Shown piece by piece: positions 392 to 63,114 of a stretch of DNA of 64,000 nt. Source of the stretch: Natronorubrum sulfidifaciens JCM 14089 (lineage in GTDB: Archaea; Halobacteriota; Halobacteria; Halobacteriales; Natrialbaceae). Below the pieces are notes generated by a model. The model had not been told where the DNA came from. It ran no database searches and saw nothing but the letters and a program-made list of their open reading frames with translations. The translations under genes and the position numbers were made by a program. Location of the stretch: assembly GCF_000337735.1 (NCBI RefSeq), contig NZ_AOHX01000043.1, forward strand, positions 110,799-174,798, written 5' to 3'. The number at the start of each line of letters is the position of its first letter. Position 1 is the stretch's first letter.

Positions 392-1123
392 ATGCGAGCA
401 CCTCAACATAACTCGGACTTCTCCCGTACCGTCGACCAGTTGGCCGACGACCCGAACCCCTACGAGCCCGAAATCGGTTCGATGCCGAAAAACGATCTCT
501 CGCGTGCTGATCTGGACAACGTGAACAAGACCGGAACGACGACGATCGGCATCTCGACGGCCGACGGCGTCGTCATCGCGACGGACATGCGCGCCAGCCT
601 CGGCGGCCGCTTCGTCTCGAACAAGAACGTTCAGAAGGTCGAACAGATCCACCCAACCGGCGCGCTCACGCTCGTCGGCAGCGTCGGTGGCGCACAGTCG
701 TTCATCTCGAGTCTCCGTGCCGAGGTCAACCTCTATGAAGCCCGTCGTGGCGAGACCATGAGCATCGACGCACTGGCGACGCTCGCGGGCAACTTCGCCC
801 GCGGCGGCCCGTTCTTCGCCATCCACCCGATTCTTGGCGGTGTCGACGACGACGGCAGCCACGTCTACAGCATCGACCCCGCCGGCGGCGTCATGGAAGA
901 CGACTACACCGTCACCGGCTCCGGGATGCAACTCGCCTACGGTCACTTAGAGCAGGCCTACGAAGACGACATGTCCAACGAGGAAGCGAAGACGGTCGCC
1001 GCTCGCGGCATCAAATCGGCCGTCGAGCGTGACACCGGCTCCGGAAACGGTGTCTTCCTCTGTGAGATCACCGACGAGGGCGTCGACATTCACGGCCACC
1101 ACGACTTCGACGAAGTCCTGTAA
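392..1123 (+). CDS. psmB: 20S proteasome beta subunit
   Basis: This 243-residue protein is the catalytic subunit of the archaeal 20S proteasome, an Ntn-hydrolase. The propeptide is about 48 residues and ends NVNKTG. Self-cleavage would expose Thr49 in TTTIGISTADG as the N-terminal nucleophile. The mature part shows the usual features: ATDMRAS, a Lys-containing segment GGRFVSNKNVQKV (Lys about 33 of the mature chain), and the GSVGGAQSF and TVTGSGMQLAYG regions. I chose the ATG at 392 over GTG at 344 because a TATA box sits just upstream and the longer version adds unconserved sequence. It would assemble with alpha subunits encoded elsewhere. Length and propeptide are normal for haloarchaea. 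Confidence 0.95.
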   Translation: MRAPQHNSDFSRTVDQLADDPNPYEPEIGSMPKNDLSRADLDNVNKTGTTTIGISTADGVVIATDMRASLGGRFVSNKNVQKVEQIHPTGALTLVGSVGGAQSFISSLRAEVNLYEARRGETMSIDALATLAGNFARGGPFFAIHPILGGVDDDGSHVYSIDPAGGVMEDDYTVTGSGMQLAYGHLEQAYEDDMSNEEAKTVAARGIKSAVERDTGSGNGVFLCEITDEGVDIHGHHDFDEVL

Positions 1124-1240
1124 CTCGGCCACCCGTTCTTTCGAGCCGCAATTCCGTGCCCAGCGAACGCTCTCTGGGTCCGTCGACAACCAACGTTGCG
1201 GATTGAAATCGTTTTACGACGGTCCCCCTATTGACCGGTA

Positions 1241-1975
1241 ATGGCGCTGCTACTGGAGGACGGTGTGCGATATCCGTTCCGTGGCGATCGGCCGACCGAC
1301 CGCCTCGCCGTCGGTGGACTACTGGGAATCGTCACCGCCATCCTGATCCAGTTCGGAGCGGCTGCGTACCCGTCACTGCTCTCGGCGCTTTTCGTCGGGC
1401 TCGCAGCTGTCTCGAGTGTCGCGTTACTCGGCTATCTGCTCCGGGTGTTCGAAACGACCATCGACGGCGACGACGCCCCGCCACGGTTTCGACCGGTCGG
1501 ACCGTTGCTTCGTGATGGGAGTCGGTTGGGGCTGCTCTCGCTTGGCTACGTGATCCTGCCACTGGCCATCATCGCCATCACCATCGGCGGGCTGTTACAG
1601 GCCCCGTTTGCCCCCGAGTCGGCGGGCTTCATGGGCTCGCTGCTGTTTTTCGGGGCGTCGACGATCGTGTTGCTCGTCGTGCTCACGTTCGGCTACGTCT
1701 ATCCGGCAGCAGTCGGCCGACTCGCCGACGGCGGACGCCTCCGTTCGGCCGCCGATCTTCGGCGTACGCGTCCCGTACTCGGCGACAGCGGCTACGCTAC
1801 CGGCTGGCTGTTCGCCTCACTGGTCGCCGTCCCGGGCTCGGCGTTTCTCCTGACGGCGCTCTCGAGTGCAACGCCGTTCGGCGTCGTCGCCGTCTTCGTG
1901 ACGTTTTACGCCCACGTCGTCGCCACCCGACTCGTTGCCCGTGGCTATCGAAACGCGGTGACAGGACTCGAGTAA
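1241..1975 (+). CDS. DUF4013-type integral membrane protein
   Basis: This 244-residue protein begins MALLLEDGVRYPFRGDRPTD and has about five or six hydrophobic helices (near 25-45, 48-68, 90-125, 135-165, 190-235). The charged N-terminus followed by repeated Gly/Leu-rich helices resembles the DUF4013 family, which is abundant in haloarchaea and has no known biochemical role. The ATG at 1241 follows a weak TATA-like gttttacg by about 30 nt. It is monocistronic, convergent with the ABC transporter genes. Family assignment is by pattern; function unknown. Confidence 0.7.
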   Translation: MALLLEDGVRYPFRGDRPTDRLAVGGLLGIVTAILIQFGAAAYPSLLSALFVGLAAVSSVALLGYLLRVFETTIDGDDAPPRFRPVGPLLRDGSRLGLLSLGYVILPLAIIAITIGGLLQAPFAPESAGFMGSLLFFGASTIVLLVVLTFGYVYPAAVGRLADGGRLRSAADLRRTRPVLGDSGYATGWLFASLVAVPGSAFLLTALSSATPFGVVAVFVTFYAHVVATRLVARGYRNAVTGLE

Positions 1976-2012
1976 GGACGGACGACACGGCGGCGAAAAT
2001 TGGGGGCGACGA

Positions 2013-3155
2013 CTACAGCTGTGGTTCGGGCATCGCCTGCGTATCGAGGGTCCGGTTTCGAAGCGCGGAGCCACTGGCACGGTCGAAGATATGGATGGCG
2101 TCTTCCGGCACGTGAGCGATCACGGACTGGCCGTCTTCGACGTGGTTGAGGCCGTCGATCGTCGCGACGAACGTCTCCGTCGAGTCGGCATCGAACGTGA
2201 GGTAGACGTTGTTCTCGTTGCCCATCGGTTCGACGACATCGACGAACGTCTCGTAGCTGTGCGTGTCGTCTTGGGTCGAGCGGAGTTCGATATCCTCGGG
2301 CCGGATGCCGAGGACGAGTTCATCGTGGTCGCCCAACTCGCTTGCGACCGCCGATGTGAGCTCGTACGTGAAATCGTCGTGAACGAGCGTCTCCCCGTCA
2401 CGGCTCACGTCGAAGAAGTTCATCGAGGGCTCCCCGATGAAGCTCGCGACGAACAGGTTCGCGGGCTCGTGATAACACTCGAGCGGTGTGCCGACCTGCT
2501 GGAGTTGGCCGTCGTTCAGGATGGCGATCTTGTCGGCCATCGTCATCGCCTCGGTCTGGTCGTGGGTGACGTAGATCGTCGCGACGCCGAGGTCCTCTTG
2601 CAGCCGCTGGAGTTCCGTTCGCATCTGCGCGCGAAGCTTCGCGTCCAGATTCGAGAGCGGTTCGTCGAGCAGGAAGACCTCCGGATCGCGGACGATCGCT
2701 CGGCCGAGCGCGACTCGCTGCTGTTGGCCACCCGAGAGATCGTCGGGTTTGCGCTCGAGTAAGTCGTCGATGCCGAGCATCGTTGCAGCGTCTTCGACTG
2801 TTGACGCGATTTCGTCATCTGGCATCGAGGTCGACTCCTCGAGGCCGAACGACATGTTCTCGCGGACGGTCATATGTGGGTACAGCGCGTACGACTGGAA
2901 CACCATCGCGATGTCCCGCTCGGCGGGTTTCGCGTCGTTGATCACCGAGCCACCGAGGCGAATCGCCCCGTCGCTGACGGTTTCCAGTCCTGCGACCATT
3001 CGGAGCGTCGTCGATTTGCCACAGCCGGATGGGCCGACGAGAACCAGAAACTCCCCGTCGTCGATTGCTAGCGATACCTCGTCGACGGCGGTGATCTCGT
3101 TTCCGTCGTCTTCTACGAATACTTTGGTTACGTCGTCGAGTTGTAGGTCAGCCAT
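2013..3155 (-). CDS. sugar ABC transporter ATP-binding protein (MalK/UgpC/ThuK type)
   Basis: This 380-residue ATPase powers the sugar importer encoded just upstream. Walker A is GPSGCGKSTT (about 40-49), the Q-loop VFQSYALYPHM, the signature LSGGQQQRVALGRA, Walker B VFLLDEPLSNLD and the switch His YVTHDQ. A C-terminal regulatory domain of about 140 residues, containing GIRPEDIELR and VEPMGNENNVYL, is the OB/TOBE fold that defines the CUT1 MalK/UgpC class. The gene follows permease 2 after about 21 bases and ends the four-gene run. The substrate cannot be read from this subunit; di- or oligosaccharides are typical of CUT1. Confidence 0.93.
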   Translation of the reverse strand: MADLQLDDVTKVFVEDDGNEITAVDEVSLAIDDGEFLVLVGPSGCGKSTTLRMVAGLETVSDGAIRLGGSVINDAKPAERDIAMVFQSYALYPHMTVRENMSFGLEESTSMPDDEIASTVEDAATMLGIDDLLERKPDDLSGGQQQRVALGRAIVRDPEVFLLDEPLSNLDAKLRAQMRTELQRLQEDLGVATIYVTHDQTEAMTMADKIAILNDGQLQQVGTPLECYHEPANLFVASFIGEPSMNFFDVSRDGETLVHDDFTYELTSAVASELGDHDELVLGIRPEDIELRSTQDDTHSYETFVDVVEPMGNENNVYLTFDADSTETFVATIDGLNHVEDGQSVIAHVPEDAIHIFDRASGSALRNRTLDTQAMPEPQL

Positions 3156-3176
3156 TGTATCTGCCTCTGTTGTGTG

Positions 3177-4046
3177 TCATAGCGTCTGCCCCTTGGCGAA
3201 CTGTTCGCCGAACAGGATGTAGACCAGAATCGTCGGGAGCGCCGCGATGAACGCCCCGGCCATCTGAACGCTGTAATCCGTCGCCATCGACCCCGCGAGT
3301 GCGTTCAACTCGAGGGTGACGACGTAGTTCGACCGGTTGCTGAGCAAGACCAGCGCGAACAGGAAGTCGTTCCAGACCTGCGTGAACTGGTAGATCAGCG
3401 TCACGGCGAACATCGGCAGCGACAGCGGAAGGACGATCTTCCGGTAGATCCGAGCGAGACTCGCACCGTCGAGGCGGGCAGCCTCGATGAGTTCGCTGTC
3501 GAGGGTCTGGTAGTACGATCGGAACAGGATCGTACAGATCGGAATCCCGTACGCGATGTGAGTGATAGTCAGCTCGACCAACTCACCGCGAGGGTGGAGT
3601 TGCGAGAGGCCGATCATCGACCAGAACTGTCGCAGTGGGACGAGCACCGCCTGATACGGAATAAACACCGCTGCAAGGAACAACACGAGCACGAACACCT
3701 GCCCGCGCCAGTCGACTTTCGTCAACCCGTAGGCGGTGAGGCTGCCGAACAGCGCCGACAGCACTGCGGCCGGAATCACCATCGCGAAGCTGTTGACCAT
3801 CGCAAACGCTAGTTCGCTGCCGGCCGTCACCCACGGGTCGATCGTGAACCCCTCGAGTGGCGGCTGTAGTGGTGACGTGTTCCGGTAGGCTTCTTGGGTC
3901 TTGAACGCGGTCGTCAGCCCGCTGTACAGCGGCGACAGATACGCGCCGACGAGCGCGAGCAGGGCACCGTAGAGGGCGATGCGACGTAGCTCGAGCCCGG
4001 ATTCCGTCTCGGTGTGCTCGCTTTCGTCAGTCGTTGTCGTTGCCAT
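3177..4046 (-). CDS. sugar ABC transporter permease (MalG/ThuG type)
   Basis: This inner-membrane permease of about 289 residues has six hydrophobic helices. The EAA loop EAARLDGASLARIYRKIVLP matches the binding-protein-dependent transport family and contacts the ATPase. I chose the ATG at 4046, giving MATTTTDESEHTET, since longer versions add an Arg/Cys-rich segment unlike the family. Its start overlaps the stop of the other permease by one base (TAATG arrangement), so the two are translationally coupled. The C-terminus GEQFAKGQTL is typical of MalG-like permeases. Confidence 0.92.
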   Translation of the reverse strand: MATTTTDESEHTETESGLELRRIALYGALLALVGAYLSPLYSGLTTAFKTQEAYRNTSPLQPPLEGFTIDPWVTAGSELAFAMVNSFAMVIPAAVLSALFGSLTAYGLTKVDWRGQVFVLVLFLAAVFIPYQAVLVPLRQFWSMIGLSQLHPRGELVELTITHIAYGIPICTILFRSYYQTLDSELIEAARLDGASLARIYRKIVLPLSLPMFAVTLIYQFTQVWNDFLFALVLLSNRSNYVVTLELNALAGSMATDYSVQMAGAFIAALPTILVYILFGEQFAKGQTL

Positions 4047-4966
4047 TAGAGTGCACCTCGTTTGTACTGTGTGTAGGCGTAGGGGCCGATGATCGTCAGC
4101 GCGAGCGCAAAGAGGACGACAGCGATCGCAGCGCCGTAGGCCCACTCGCTCGAGGAGAACGCCTCACGGTACATCGTGACCGCGAGGATGTCCACCGATC
4201 GACCGGGGTTCGTGCCGAACATGACGTAGATAAAGTCAAACGCCTTCAGCGCGAACACCATCAGGACGACGGTCGCACCGACCGTCGACGAGCGAAGCTG
4301 TGGGATGATGATCCGCCGGTACAGCGTCAGCGTCGACGCACCGTCGATGCGGGCGGCCTCGTAGTGGTCGTTCGGAATCGAGCGCAAGCCGGCGAGATAG
4401 ACGATCATACAGTAGCCGCTGAACTGCCAGACGAGCGCGAAGATGACCGCGGCGAGTTTGAATCGTGGATCGCCGAGCCAGTCGTGTGCGAGCCAGCCGA
4501 GTCCGAGGCCGGACAGCGTGGTGTTGATCAGGCCGTTCGAGGCGTACATCCACGACCAGAAGATCGCGGTGACAACGAACGACAACGCCATCGGCAGCAG
4601 ATAGATCGTCCGGAACGTACTCTCAAAACGGATCTTGCGATCGACGAGCAACGCGAGCCCGAGCCCAACGACCAGCGAGACGCCGGTAAAGGCGACGAGC
4701 AGCGCAATCGTGTTCCGGAGGGATGCCATGAAGTCCGGATCTGACGGCATCTGTCGATACATCTCCAGCGTGAAGTTCGTGTAGTCGGGCTGTCCGAGAC
4801 CGGACCACCCGGTAAACGAGATAATGACGTTCCAGCCAATCGCCCCGTAGACGAACAACAGAACAAGCGCCGTCGCTGGCAGCCAGAACGGCATCGACTC
4901 GAGGAAGTCGCTGTCGCTCGCCGACAGCGGATTGAGTCGTTTGATCGAATTTCGTAACGAATCCAT
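4046..4966 (-). CDS. sugar ABC transporter permease (MalF/UgpA/ThuF type)
   Basis: This 306-residue membrane permease has about six helices and an EAA loop EAARIDGASTLTLYRRIIIP near residue 220. The PDYTNFTLEMY segment after the first helix and FDFIYVMFGTNPGRSVDIL near the end are typical of CUT1 permeases that pair with MalG-type partners. It starts 16 bases after the binding-protein stop and overlaps the next gene by one base, so the four genes form one operon. It has the short N-terminus of UgpA-like proteins, not the long MalF periplasmic domain of enteric bacteria. Confidence 0.92.
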   Translation of the reverse strand: MDSLRNSIKRLNPLSASDSDFLESMPFWLPATALVLLFVYGAIGWNVIISFTGWSGLGQPDYTNFTLEMYRQMPSDPDFMASLRNTIALLVAFTGVSLVVGLGLALLVDRKIRFESTFRTIYLLPMALSFVVTAIFWSWMYASNGLINTTLSGLGLGWLAHDWLGDPRFKLAAVIFALVWQFSGYCMIVYLAGLRSIPNDHYEAARIDGASTLTLYRRIIIPQLRSSTVGATVVLMVFALKAFDFIYVMFGTNPGRSVDILAVTMYREAFSSSEWAYGAAIAVVLFALALTIIGPYAYTQYKRGAL

Positions 4967-14913: not shown

Positions 14914-14997
14914 GGTGGGGTGGCAGAGCGGCCCAACGCGGTTGCCTTGAGAGCAACTGGCTGACAAGCCTCATGGGTTCAAATCCCATCCCCACCG
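14914..14997 (+). tRNA. tRNA-Ser(UGA)
   Basis: An 84-nt class II tRNA. Acceptor strands ggtgggg (14914-14920) and ccccacc (14990-14996) pair perfectly, with G73 at 14997. The anticodon arm gttgc-cttgaga-gcaac places TGA in the loop. A variable arm follows, then the T arm atggg-ttcaaat-cccat. There is no intron and no encoded CCA. The last 22 nt plus three Ts are repeated 132 bp downstream (see the flanking element). Confidence 0.93.
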
Positions 14998-15000
14998 TTT

Positions 15001-15132
15001 TCAGCGAACAACTGCGACGAACGGAGTGAGGAGCACGTGAGCGGAAAACGACACGTTGGGATTTGAATTAGACCGAGGTTCTGCGCTTTGCGCAGGTTCT
15101 CGGGCGTGGTTCAAATCCCATCCCCACCGTTT
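15001..15132 (+). repeat. tRNA-Ser 3'-end duplication with flanking hairpin
   Basis: The 25-nt segment from the T loop through the discriminator and TTT (14976-15000) recurs exactly at 15108-15132. Just before it is an inverted repeat: tgggatttgaa (15057-15067) pairs with ttcaaatccca (15110-15120), cgag with ctcg, and ctgcgc with gcgcag around a TTT loop. The left arm thus complements the copied tRNA T-arm strand. The same arrangement occurs twice after tRNA-Lys, with the shared core tgaa-n-tagac / ggcgt-n-gttca. Confidence 0.75.
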
Positions 15133-27104: not shown

Positions 27105-27178
27105 GCCAGGGGAGCATGGGTGGTTCATGCACTCGACTTGTAATCGAGACTCCCGGGGTTCAAATCCCCGCCCTGGCT
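27105..27178 (+). tRNA. tRNA-Thr(UGU)
   Basis: A 74-nt tRNA. Acceptor strands gccaggg (27105-27111) and ccctggc (27171-27177) pair, with the discriminator at 27178. The anticodon arm ctcga-cttgtaa-tcgag gives TGT. The T arm cgggg-ttcaaat-ccccg is intact. No intron, no encoded CCA. Unlike tRNA-Ser and tRNA-Lys here, no 3'-end copy follows; a dispersed hairpin repeat starts at the next base. Confidence 0.93.
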
Positions 27179-58519: not shown

Positions 58520-58593
58520 GGGCCGGTAGCTCAGTCCGGCAGAGCGTCTGACTCTTAATCAGACGGTCGCGTGTTCAAATCGCGCCCGGCCCG
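58520..58593 (+). tRNA. tRNA-Lys(CUU)
   Basis: A 74-nt tRNA. Acceptor strands gggccgg (58520-58526) and ccggccc (58586-58592) pair, with G73 at 58593. The anticodon arm tctga-ctcttaa-tcaga places CTT in the loop. The T arm gcgtgttcaaatcgcgc includes one G-T pair. No intron, no CCA. The 3' end is repeated twice downstream (58692-58716 and 58823-58847). Confidence 0.93.
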
Positions 58594-58847
58594 CTTCTCG
58601 CCGAGAGCAAATCCGCGAGCGGCGAGCATCGGAACCGGCGGGATTTGAACTAGACCAGAAAGGCGCAGCGCAGCGAGCATTTCTGGGCGTAGTTCATAAT
58701 CGCGCCCGGCCCGCTTTTGCCACGAGCATTTTCGTGAGAAGCAAAGCGGCTGGAACGATTTGAAGTAGACGAGTCACAGCCCGTAAGTGAGCGCAGCGAG
58801 CGAACTGGAACGTCTCGGCGTCGTTCATAATCGCACCCGATCCGCCT
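58594..58847 (+). repeat. two tandem tRNA-Lys 3'-end copies, each behind a hairpin
   Basis: Copy B ends at 58713, 120 bp after the tRNA discriminator, and reads gttcataatcgcgcccggcc plus cgctt. Copy C ends at 58844, 131 bp later, and reads gttcataatcgcacccgatc plus cgcct. Each follows an inverted repeat: gatttgaac-tagac-cagaaa with tttctg-ggcgta-gttcataatc in B, and gatttgaa-gtagac-gag with ctc-ggcgtc-gttcataatc in C. A separate small hairpin (ctcgccg...cggcgag) begins unit B. The same layout follows tRNA-Ser at 15001-15132. No gene is seen in this stretch. Confidence 0.75.
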
Positions 58848-62550: not shown

Positions 62551-63114
62551 ATGCCCACAGAGTTTACTGACAGCGACATCGGCAAGACCGTTATCAACGC
62601 AAACGGCGATGATGTTGGCATCGTCGCAGACGTCGAACACGGAACAGCACACGTCGAACCGGACCCCGGAATCACAGACACAATCAAGGCAAAACTCGGC
62701 TGGGGCGGGACCGACGAAGACGCATACCCGCTGCAGAAAGAAACCGTCGCTCGAGTCACGGACGATGCGGTTCATCTCGAGAGCGACGTCTCGGGAACAG
62801 GCGGCGGTGCCACCGGCACCAGCCGTTCGACTGGTATGGAAACAGACAGCGAGCGAGGGACCGATCGAGACACGGGGATGCATGACGACGACGATGACTT
62901 GATCGGCGACGACGATGACGGGTTCACCGACGATGATGAGCTAATTGGTGACGACGACGATGATGACCTGATCGGTGACGACGATGACGGGTTCACCGAC
63001 GATGATGAGCTAATTGGTGACGACGACGATGATCTGATCGGTGACGACGATGACGGACTCACCGACGACGATGAGCTAATTGGTGACGACGACGACGAGA
63101 CACGTACCCGGTGA
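62551..63114 (+). CDS. PRC-barrel protein with acidic tandem-repeat tail
   Basis: This 187-residue protein has a PRC-barrel-like N-domain (MPTEFTDSDIGKTVINANGD; VGIVADVEHGTAHVEPDPGI; DEDAYPLQKETVARVTDDAV). A Ser/Thr/Gly linker follows, then an Asp-rich repeat tail: three copies of a 22-23-residue unit with DDGFTDDDELIGDDDDD and LIGDDDD. The DNA repeats (62914-62982, 62983-63048, 63049-63099) are nearly identical, including the rare codons cta att, so the expansion is recent. The tail could bind divalent cations or water. Function unknown. Confidence 0.85.
   Translation: MPTEFTDSDIGKTVINANGDDVGIVADVEHGTAHVEPDPGITDTIKAKLGWGGTDEDAYPLQKETVARVTDDAVHLESDVSGTGGGATGTSRSTGMETDSERGTDRDTGMHDDDDDLIGDDDDGFTDDDELIGDDDDDDLIGDDDDGFTDDDELIGDDDDDLIGDDDDGLTDDDELIGDDDDETRTR
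62914..63099 (+). repeat. tandem repeat, about 2.7 units of 66-69 bp, inside a PRC-barrel gene
   Basis: Units start at 62914, 62983 and 63049, each with gatgacggrytcaccgacga then tgagctaattggtgacgacg. Unit 1 is 69 bp and unit 2 is 66 bp (one Asp codon fewer). The repeat stays in frame and encodes the acidic tail. It is not a CRISPR: there are no unique spacers. Confidence 0.8.

Follow-up and report, generated by a model that had tools for sequence, protein, structure and literature searches.

Tandem hairpin units that copy the 3′ end of their own tRNA in both orientations lie behind tRNA genes across Halobacteria

Architecture of the tRNA-associated units

The window, a 64,000-nucleotide stretch of the Natronorubrum sulfidifaciens JCM 14089 genome (G000), holds three tRNA genes, two of which are followed on their 3′ side by short repeated units (Table 1). 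tRNA-Lys(CTT) carries two units of 120 bp (58594–58713) and 131 bp (58714–58844), and tRNA-Ser(TGA) one of 132 bp (14998–15129), units in general being ~100–140 bases long; the third gene, tRNA-Thr (27105–27178), is without a unit. The 3′ boundary of tRNA-Lys is placed at 58593 by Rfam and at 58594 by ARAGORN. The original prediction held that two tandem units with the same hairpin core follow tRNA-Lys, that they end in drifting copies of the Lys tRNA 3′ end and that the tRNA-Ser unit is a third example. All of this is borne out, as the core TGAAnTAGAC...GGCGTnGTTCA is present in the Lys units and in the tRNA-Ser unit, the unit 1 tail GCGCCCGGCCCG matches tRNA-Lys exactly and the unit 2 tail GCACCCGATCCG has drifted.

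All units follow the same plan, consisting in order of hairpin A, an inverted own-tRNA arm (i), a B cassette and a direct own-tRNA tail (d). Hairpin A begins directly 3′ of the tRNA; its unit 1 type is also found at Lys loci in other genera, and its unit 2 type is common to the congeners G101 and G103. Arm i (GATTTGAA) is an inverted copy of the T-loop and T-stem of the own tRNA, with a 5′ extension that is complementary to the own T-stem and, less perfectly by eye, to the own acceptor strand. The B cassette comprises a ‘neck’ and a variable inner hairpin, and tail d runs from the T-loop through the last base of the tRNA. The derivation of the tail from the own tRNA had been correctly predicted, but it had been missed that the 5′ arm is also an own-tRNA copy, in inverted orientation, and that hairpin A precedes this arm.

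Searches of the units against Rfam gave no match at the gathering threshold or at E values up to 0.1 other than the tRNAs themselves and one weak antisense tRNA match. A decayed tRNA pseudogene was rejected as an explanation, since neither Rfam nor ARAGORN returned an RF00005 match or a second tRNA and the copy starts at the T-loop. Elsewhere in the window, an open reading frame of 187 amino acids (62551–63114, plus strand) has a C-terminal half made of a tandem acidic repeat (DDDDLIGDDDDGFTDDDELIG).

Table 1. Positions of the tRNA anchors and unit components in the window
Feature	Position	Strand	Basis
tRNA-Lys(CTT), array anchor; 3′ end GTTCAAATCGCGCCCGGCCCG is copy d0	58520–58593	+	ARAGORN, Rfam
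Unit 1 hairpin A region, stem CTCGCC/GGCGAG	58594–58637	+	Sequence; alone, stability does not exceed shuffles
Unit 1 arm i, GGCGGGATTTGAA region; GATTTGAA at 58642–58649	58638–58649	+	Sequence, own-tRNA comparison
Unit 1 B cassette, class I; TAGAC 58651–58655, inner stem CAGAAA/TTTCTG, GGCGT 58686–58690	58650–58691	+	DNA fold z -4.7
Unit 1 tail d1 GTTCATAATCGCGCCCGGCCCG, direct own-tRNA copy	58692–58713	+	Sequence, own-tRNA comparison
Unit 2 hairpin A region, CTTTTGCCAC...GCAAAG type	58714–58756	+	Sequence, congener comparison
Unit 2 arm i GATTTGAA	58757–58764	+	Sequence
Unit 2 B cassette, class I; TAGAC 58766–58770, GGCGT 58817–58821	58765–58822	+	Fold no better than shuffles
Unit 2 tail d2 GTTCATAATCGCACCCGATCCG, drifted	58823–58844	+	Sequence, congener comparison
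tRNA-Ser(TGA), anchor of third unit	14914–14997	+	ARAGORN, Rfam
tRNA-Ser unit: A 14998–15056, GATTTGAA 15060–15067 in i, class I B, tail GTTCAAATCCCATCCCCACCG 15109–15129	14998–15129	+	DNA fold z -5.0

Arms and tails copy the adjoining tRNA

The own-tRNA identity of both arms is directly visible in a comparison of 116 class I units, in which 10.9 of the 12 tail positions outside the universal AATC agree with the own tRNA (permutation maximum 6.3), as do 2.73 of 5 positions in the left arm (permutation maximum 2.06). The called tail contains TTCGAA for all 12 tRNAs with that T-loop sequence and for none of the listed tRNAs with TTCAAA. Where tail and tRNA disagree, the left arm sides with the tRNA in 33 cases and with the tail in 5, which can mean either that the tail decays after insertion or that i is under constraint. 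This 33:5 ratio, together with the location directly 3′ of the tRNA, also suits an alternative that we regard as unlikely yet worth serious attention, namely that the unit acts in the tRNA trailer as a functional RNA element, with its own arms and orientation kept by selection. In a transcript that runs past the tRNA, arm i would then pair either with the 3′ end of the tRNA itself or with d, and so serve as a switch, a reserve terminator or a decoy for processing. The two RNA 3′ ends reported downstream of tRNA-Pro in H. volcanii (PMC7237163) point in the same direction.

Many tails, for example at 58692–58701 in the window, contain an extra pyrimidine in the T-loop copy (GTTCAYAATC versus GTTCAAATC). 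Such tails occur at Lys, Phe and Thr loci and are common behind Lys and Phe; that the insertion travels with the B cassette is weakly suggested by 31 of 48 cases, against 50%.

Neck classes and folding of the B cassette

Several neck classes can be distinguished: class I (TAGAC/GGCGT), class II (CAGGGA/GACCGTG), classes III and IV (CCCTGG or CCCTGCC with TTCGG) and class V (GAGAGAA/TTCGCGT), and others exist. The motif originally taken to define the family is real, but it consists of the T-loop arms plus the class I neck and is one of several. Across four class groups, B is oriented forward relative to the tRNA in 166 cases and reversed in none.

The predicted covariation of the inner stem, for which the three units alone give thin evidence, is strong across 105 distinct class I inner segments. 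Indeed, the basal stems of B covary almost without wobble: the four basal pairs are Watson–Crick in 406 of 420 cells, with 4 G·T and 2 A·C, and between two and four pair types occur at three of the four positions. Of 183 predicted apical loops, 105 are triloops, and 78 of these are C-GNA-G on the tRNA strand. C-GNA-G triloops form unusually stable DNA mini-hairpins. When folded as DNA and compared with 200 shuffles, unit 1 (z -4.7) and the tRNA-Ser unit (z -5.0) each beat all of them, and unit 2 is not better than its shuffles (z -0.33).

For B, the tRNA strand is predicted to be more stable than its complement in 127 of 168 cases. This bias and the fixed orientation speak for an RNA element, against which stands the near absence of G·U pairs from the covarying stems; G·U counts in the predicted folds do not distinguish RNA from DNA. 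The triloops and the strand bias would suit an RNA as well, and the predicted folds are compatible with either folded DNA or folded RNA and prove neither.

Distribution across Halobacteria

In the window's genome, the exact core has three matches, which are the two Lys units and the tRNA-Ser unit, and the reversed control has none. Chance is excluded because the exact class I core occurs in 80 of 125 genomes of the family and the reversed control gives 0 throughout. A scan of species genomes returned at least 118 stretches with the exact core; among the matches listed nearly all are from Halobacteria, and the few bacterial ones are without a tRNA-like tail.

A generic pattern made of the arms only, i...d (GATTTGAA N15–75 TTCAAATC), is found in 353 of the 391 genomes of Halobacteria, representing 81 of 86 genera, with up to 26 matches per genome; its reversed control gives 0 in all 391. 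In a sample of the phylum, Halobacteria hold up to 25 copies each and other genomes 0–3 versus 0–2 in controls, which places the pattern at control level outside Halobacteria. In an independent Halobacteria sample (42 loci), 43 of 44 generic matches have a tRNA on the same strand no more than 500 nt upstream, and the single exception follows an attR-like partial tRNA copy. Consistent with the original prediction of a repeat family that is enriched beside tRNA genes genome-wide and takes its tail from its own tRNA, matches are thus tRNA-downstream and tails are own beyond permutation, and the family is found to span Halobacteria.

In tRNA sets chosen irrespective of the motif, a tail copy matching at 14 or more of 16 positions lies behind 13 of 33 tRNA genes in G000 and 23 of 31 in its congener G103, with two or more copies at 3 and 8 genes, respectively; much of the wider sample was selected for having the class I motif. 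Many tRNAs of the same genome, and the same tRNA in congeners, are without a unit, which counts against a functional RNA element. Haloferax larsenii (L107) and H. elongans (L109) are carriers, and the family can therefore be tested in a tractable genus. On viral contigs, the class I core has three matches with short loops and no tRNA found, and the generic pattern has 120; when the whole locus is compared with phages by BLAST, the matches listed span the tRNA gene only.

Sharing of B cassettes between tRNA loci

B cassettes can differ between units that are otherwise alike. The Ser(TGA) units of G000 and G101 have the same A, i, d and flank and wholly different B cassettes, and two tandem units behind tRNA-Met in G389 combine unlike B cassettes with an almost identical A. 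Conversely, the Ile and Phe modules of G103 are identical at ~50 of 52 B bases with unlike A, and an identical B is present at a Lys locus (L048) and a Phe locus (L058) of different genera. Across genomes, 3.7% of pairs from the same isotype and 0.04% of other pairs exceed a similarity score of 0.6 in A, compared with 11% and 3% in B; A and the arms are therefore tied to the isotype, and B moves. Deletion between the i copies of tandem units could account for some B swaps, but not for the sharing of B across isotypes.

The limits of exchange, which are read directly from these comparisons, coincide with the short T-loop copies. They would suit an enzyme-free origin, in which replication forks stall at tRNA genes and hairpins and template switching at T-loop microhomologies of 7–8 bases copies B from one locus to another; i would stay complementary to the local tRNA through quasi-palindrome correction, and units would be duplicated by slippage. 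Although this scheme explains the own inverted arm naturally, and deletions between short repeats are known in haloarchaea (PMC3119063), we consider it improbable, if still a serious rival: B has a fixed orientation, the neck classes are conserved and shared across Halobacteria, and the rest of the phylum is without units despite having like T-loops.

Array dynamics among congeners

The order of units and the precise differences between them can be read directly at loci shared by congeneric genomes. Behind tRNA-Lys(CTT), one old unit is common to G000 (second unit), G101 (sole unit) and G103 (second unit), with an A of the CTTTTGC... type, a GAGTCACAGCCC-like B and decayed tails. Between the tRNA and this old unit, G000 and G103 have unlike units, each with a perfect tail. 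In G102, unit 2 of tRNA-Lys is precisely missing compared with G000, and the flank resumes after the tail. At tRNA-Val(GAC), the G000 unit precedes an older A hairpin, and the same A lies directly behind the tRNA in G102. Among arrays with several copies, the tail closest to the tRNA is the better in 43 and the worse in 11.

Neighbouring units are copies of each other at some loci: tRNA-Lys(TTT) of G103 has two identical units, and tRNA-Gly of G389 has about seven with the same B, some of them diverged in A or tail. Such tandem duplicates also suit an enzyme-free origin by slippage. The neighbours in the window array and at the Lys(CTT) locus of G103 differ in both A and B. The number of copies per tRNA ranges from one to about eight. 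This variation, together with the decay of distal tails, weighs against a functional RNA element. We infer from these comparisons that units are added next to the tRNA, are deleted or duplicated between repeats and decay outwards, the direction of gain or loss in single changes being based on few congeneric comparisons.

At the tRNA-Gly(GCC) locus of G103 (L231), hairpin A is followed directly by the tail (AATCCCAGCCAGTGCA) without an i arm or B, a layout as expected from a deletion inside a unit. In G102, five tRNA regions compared between contigs C1 and C2 are 100% identical over 541–1311 bp. The two contigs were rejected as representing two strains on account of this identity, and C2 may represent either a piece duplicated in the assembly or a large duplication of recent origin; because the copies are identical, no micro-evolution can be read from them.

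Comparison with integrative elements and other mobile repeats

Archaeal tyrosine integrases of the IntSNJ2, pNOB8 and SSV types attach at tRNA 3′ ends (PMC8371274). The units resemble their sites in that insertion at the 3′ part of a tRNA leaves a direct copy of the tRNA end and integration can be in tandem (PMC8371274); a direct copy is indeed found at the far end of the unit. However, the units are without genes and possess an own-tRNA inverted arm and covarying hairpins, which the SNJ2-type attP cores of 12–15 bp lack. No gene-bearing DNA was seen between A and B, and 43 of 44 independent matches are at most 500 nt from the tRNA.

Mobile elements do use d0 at such loci. In G102 (C1 2631464–2663182; L155, L325), ~31 kb separate tRNA-Lys(CTT) from the first unit; the far end of this DNA is a tRNA 3′-end copy, and the element therefore appears to be integrated at d0. 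A Halovivax sp. KZCA124 locus (L091, reverse strand, 745–4500) has a broken IntSNJ2-type integrase with an N-terminal ORF at 3637–4275, next to a partial copy of tRNA-Phe and to a second unit that is almost the same as the first and 3.6 kb away from it. This is the remnant of an element that seems to have brought a unit along. A further locus, L269, has a tRNA fragment upstream. These cases would fit an origin of the units from integrative elements targeting the tRNA 3′ end, as remnants or decoys of their att sites. We nevertheless judge this origin very improbable, as unit length is uniform and mobile elements, in the cases read, lie upstream of A and never between A and i. An SNJ2-type attP, suggested by the broken integrase of L091, was ruled out: in six pleolipovirus genomes of this type, the cores near the integrase are short and without i/B arms or hairpin, and the attP regions of SNJ2, HHPV4, HRPV9, Halfgib1, Humcor2 and Harhisp1 contain no GTTCA(N)AATC site and no i/B hairpin.

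CRISPR arrays grow in a polar manner beside a fixed ‘leader’, with duplication of the adjacent repeat, and casposons target tRNA 3′ ends. The units recall both, in what may be polar growth beside a fixed ‘leader’ with duplication of the neighbouring repeat and in their position at a tRNA 3′ end; the proposed direction of growth is deduced from the tRNA-proximal differences at the Lys and Val loci and from the 43:11 excess of better nearest tails. Unlike in CRISPR, the part of the ‘repeat’ is taken by the tRNA's own end and that of the ‘spacer’ by a conserved hairpin structure. Neither cas genes nor terminal inverted repeats were seen with the units, and MITE- or casposon-type terminal inverted repeats were rejected after inspection by eye.

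Integron attC sites and the folded attP of CTX phage are imperfect hairpins with an unpaired neck and a variable tip. The units share these features as well as a fixed orientation and exchangeable cassettes, and their structure would be compatible with recombination of a folded single strand by an integrase. In contrast to integron cassettes, they are without open reading frames, no IntI was identified and attC motifs are absent by eye.

The PATEs and SMRs of Haloquadratum are short, non-coding, palindromic mobile repeats, the SMRs being ~110 bp long, which make no target duplication and target other transposons or sites (PMC3119063). The units are likewise short, non-coding, palindromic and haloarchaeal, with a size similar to that of SMRs, but they sit behind tRNAs, and every unit comes with a copy of the tRNA end.

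Proposed mechanism

We favour, with a probability of roughly 0.45, a recombination-built, tRNA-anchored array that grows at its tRNA side and carries exchangeable hairpin cassettes. The array would be extended by insertion into the 3′-terminal segment of the tRNA gene (T-loop to discriminator), a step that would duplicate this segment; recombination between d or i copies would shorten the array; and B cassettes would be swapped at boundaries set by the T-loop copies. The substrate may be a folded DNA hairpin, as suggested by the single orientation of B, its near wobble-free basal stems and its mostly C-GNA-G triloops, and the reaction would be carried out in trans by a putative recombinase, either tyrosine-recombinase-like or Cas1-like, as in casposons and at CRISPR repeats. 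A more specific proposal, which is tentative and on balance doubtful, is an undescribed haloarchaeal DNA-cassette system with tRNA ‘leaders’, in which a putative recombinase inserts hairpins and exchanges their cores among loci and species. Under such a system the tRNA end would be copied both directly and inverted, giving ordered, decaying arrays behind many tRNA genes.

Neither simple duplication of a target nor conservative tyrosine recombination would be expected to yield the own inverted arm, and this arm argues against insertion by a recombinase. B is bordered by T-loop copies in opposite orientations, a layout from which a classical recombinase should produce inverted cassettes too, and none is present among the 166 oriented by their tRNA; a strand-specific reaction on a folded hairpin would explain why they are missing. 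No recombinase, circular form or intermediate was seen, nor any gene-bearing element with the same two ends as the units.

No earlier description of tRNA-anchored hairpin arrays was found in the open-access literature, and one may exist elsewhere. What is new is the organization of the array, its mechanism being a proposal. Across an archaeal class, many tRNA genes are followed by units in arrays whose growth and decay appear to be ordered. Should the arrays have arisen by recombination, they would represent a new way to insert and exchange short DNA hairpins at tRNA genes; as functional RNAs, they would form a large unnoticed class of tRNA-trailer structures. Either way, the arrays occupy the integration sites of proviruses and record recent events at tRNA loci.

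A different repeat (CTTCACATCGCTTCGCTCGTTCAGTCGTGACTCGCCGAAC...) lies downstream of tRNA-Ala(CGC) in G000 (L196) and at L223 in G103. It is in tandem in G000, has own-Ala tails and is without a T-loop arm, and is possibly another kind of tRNA-end array.
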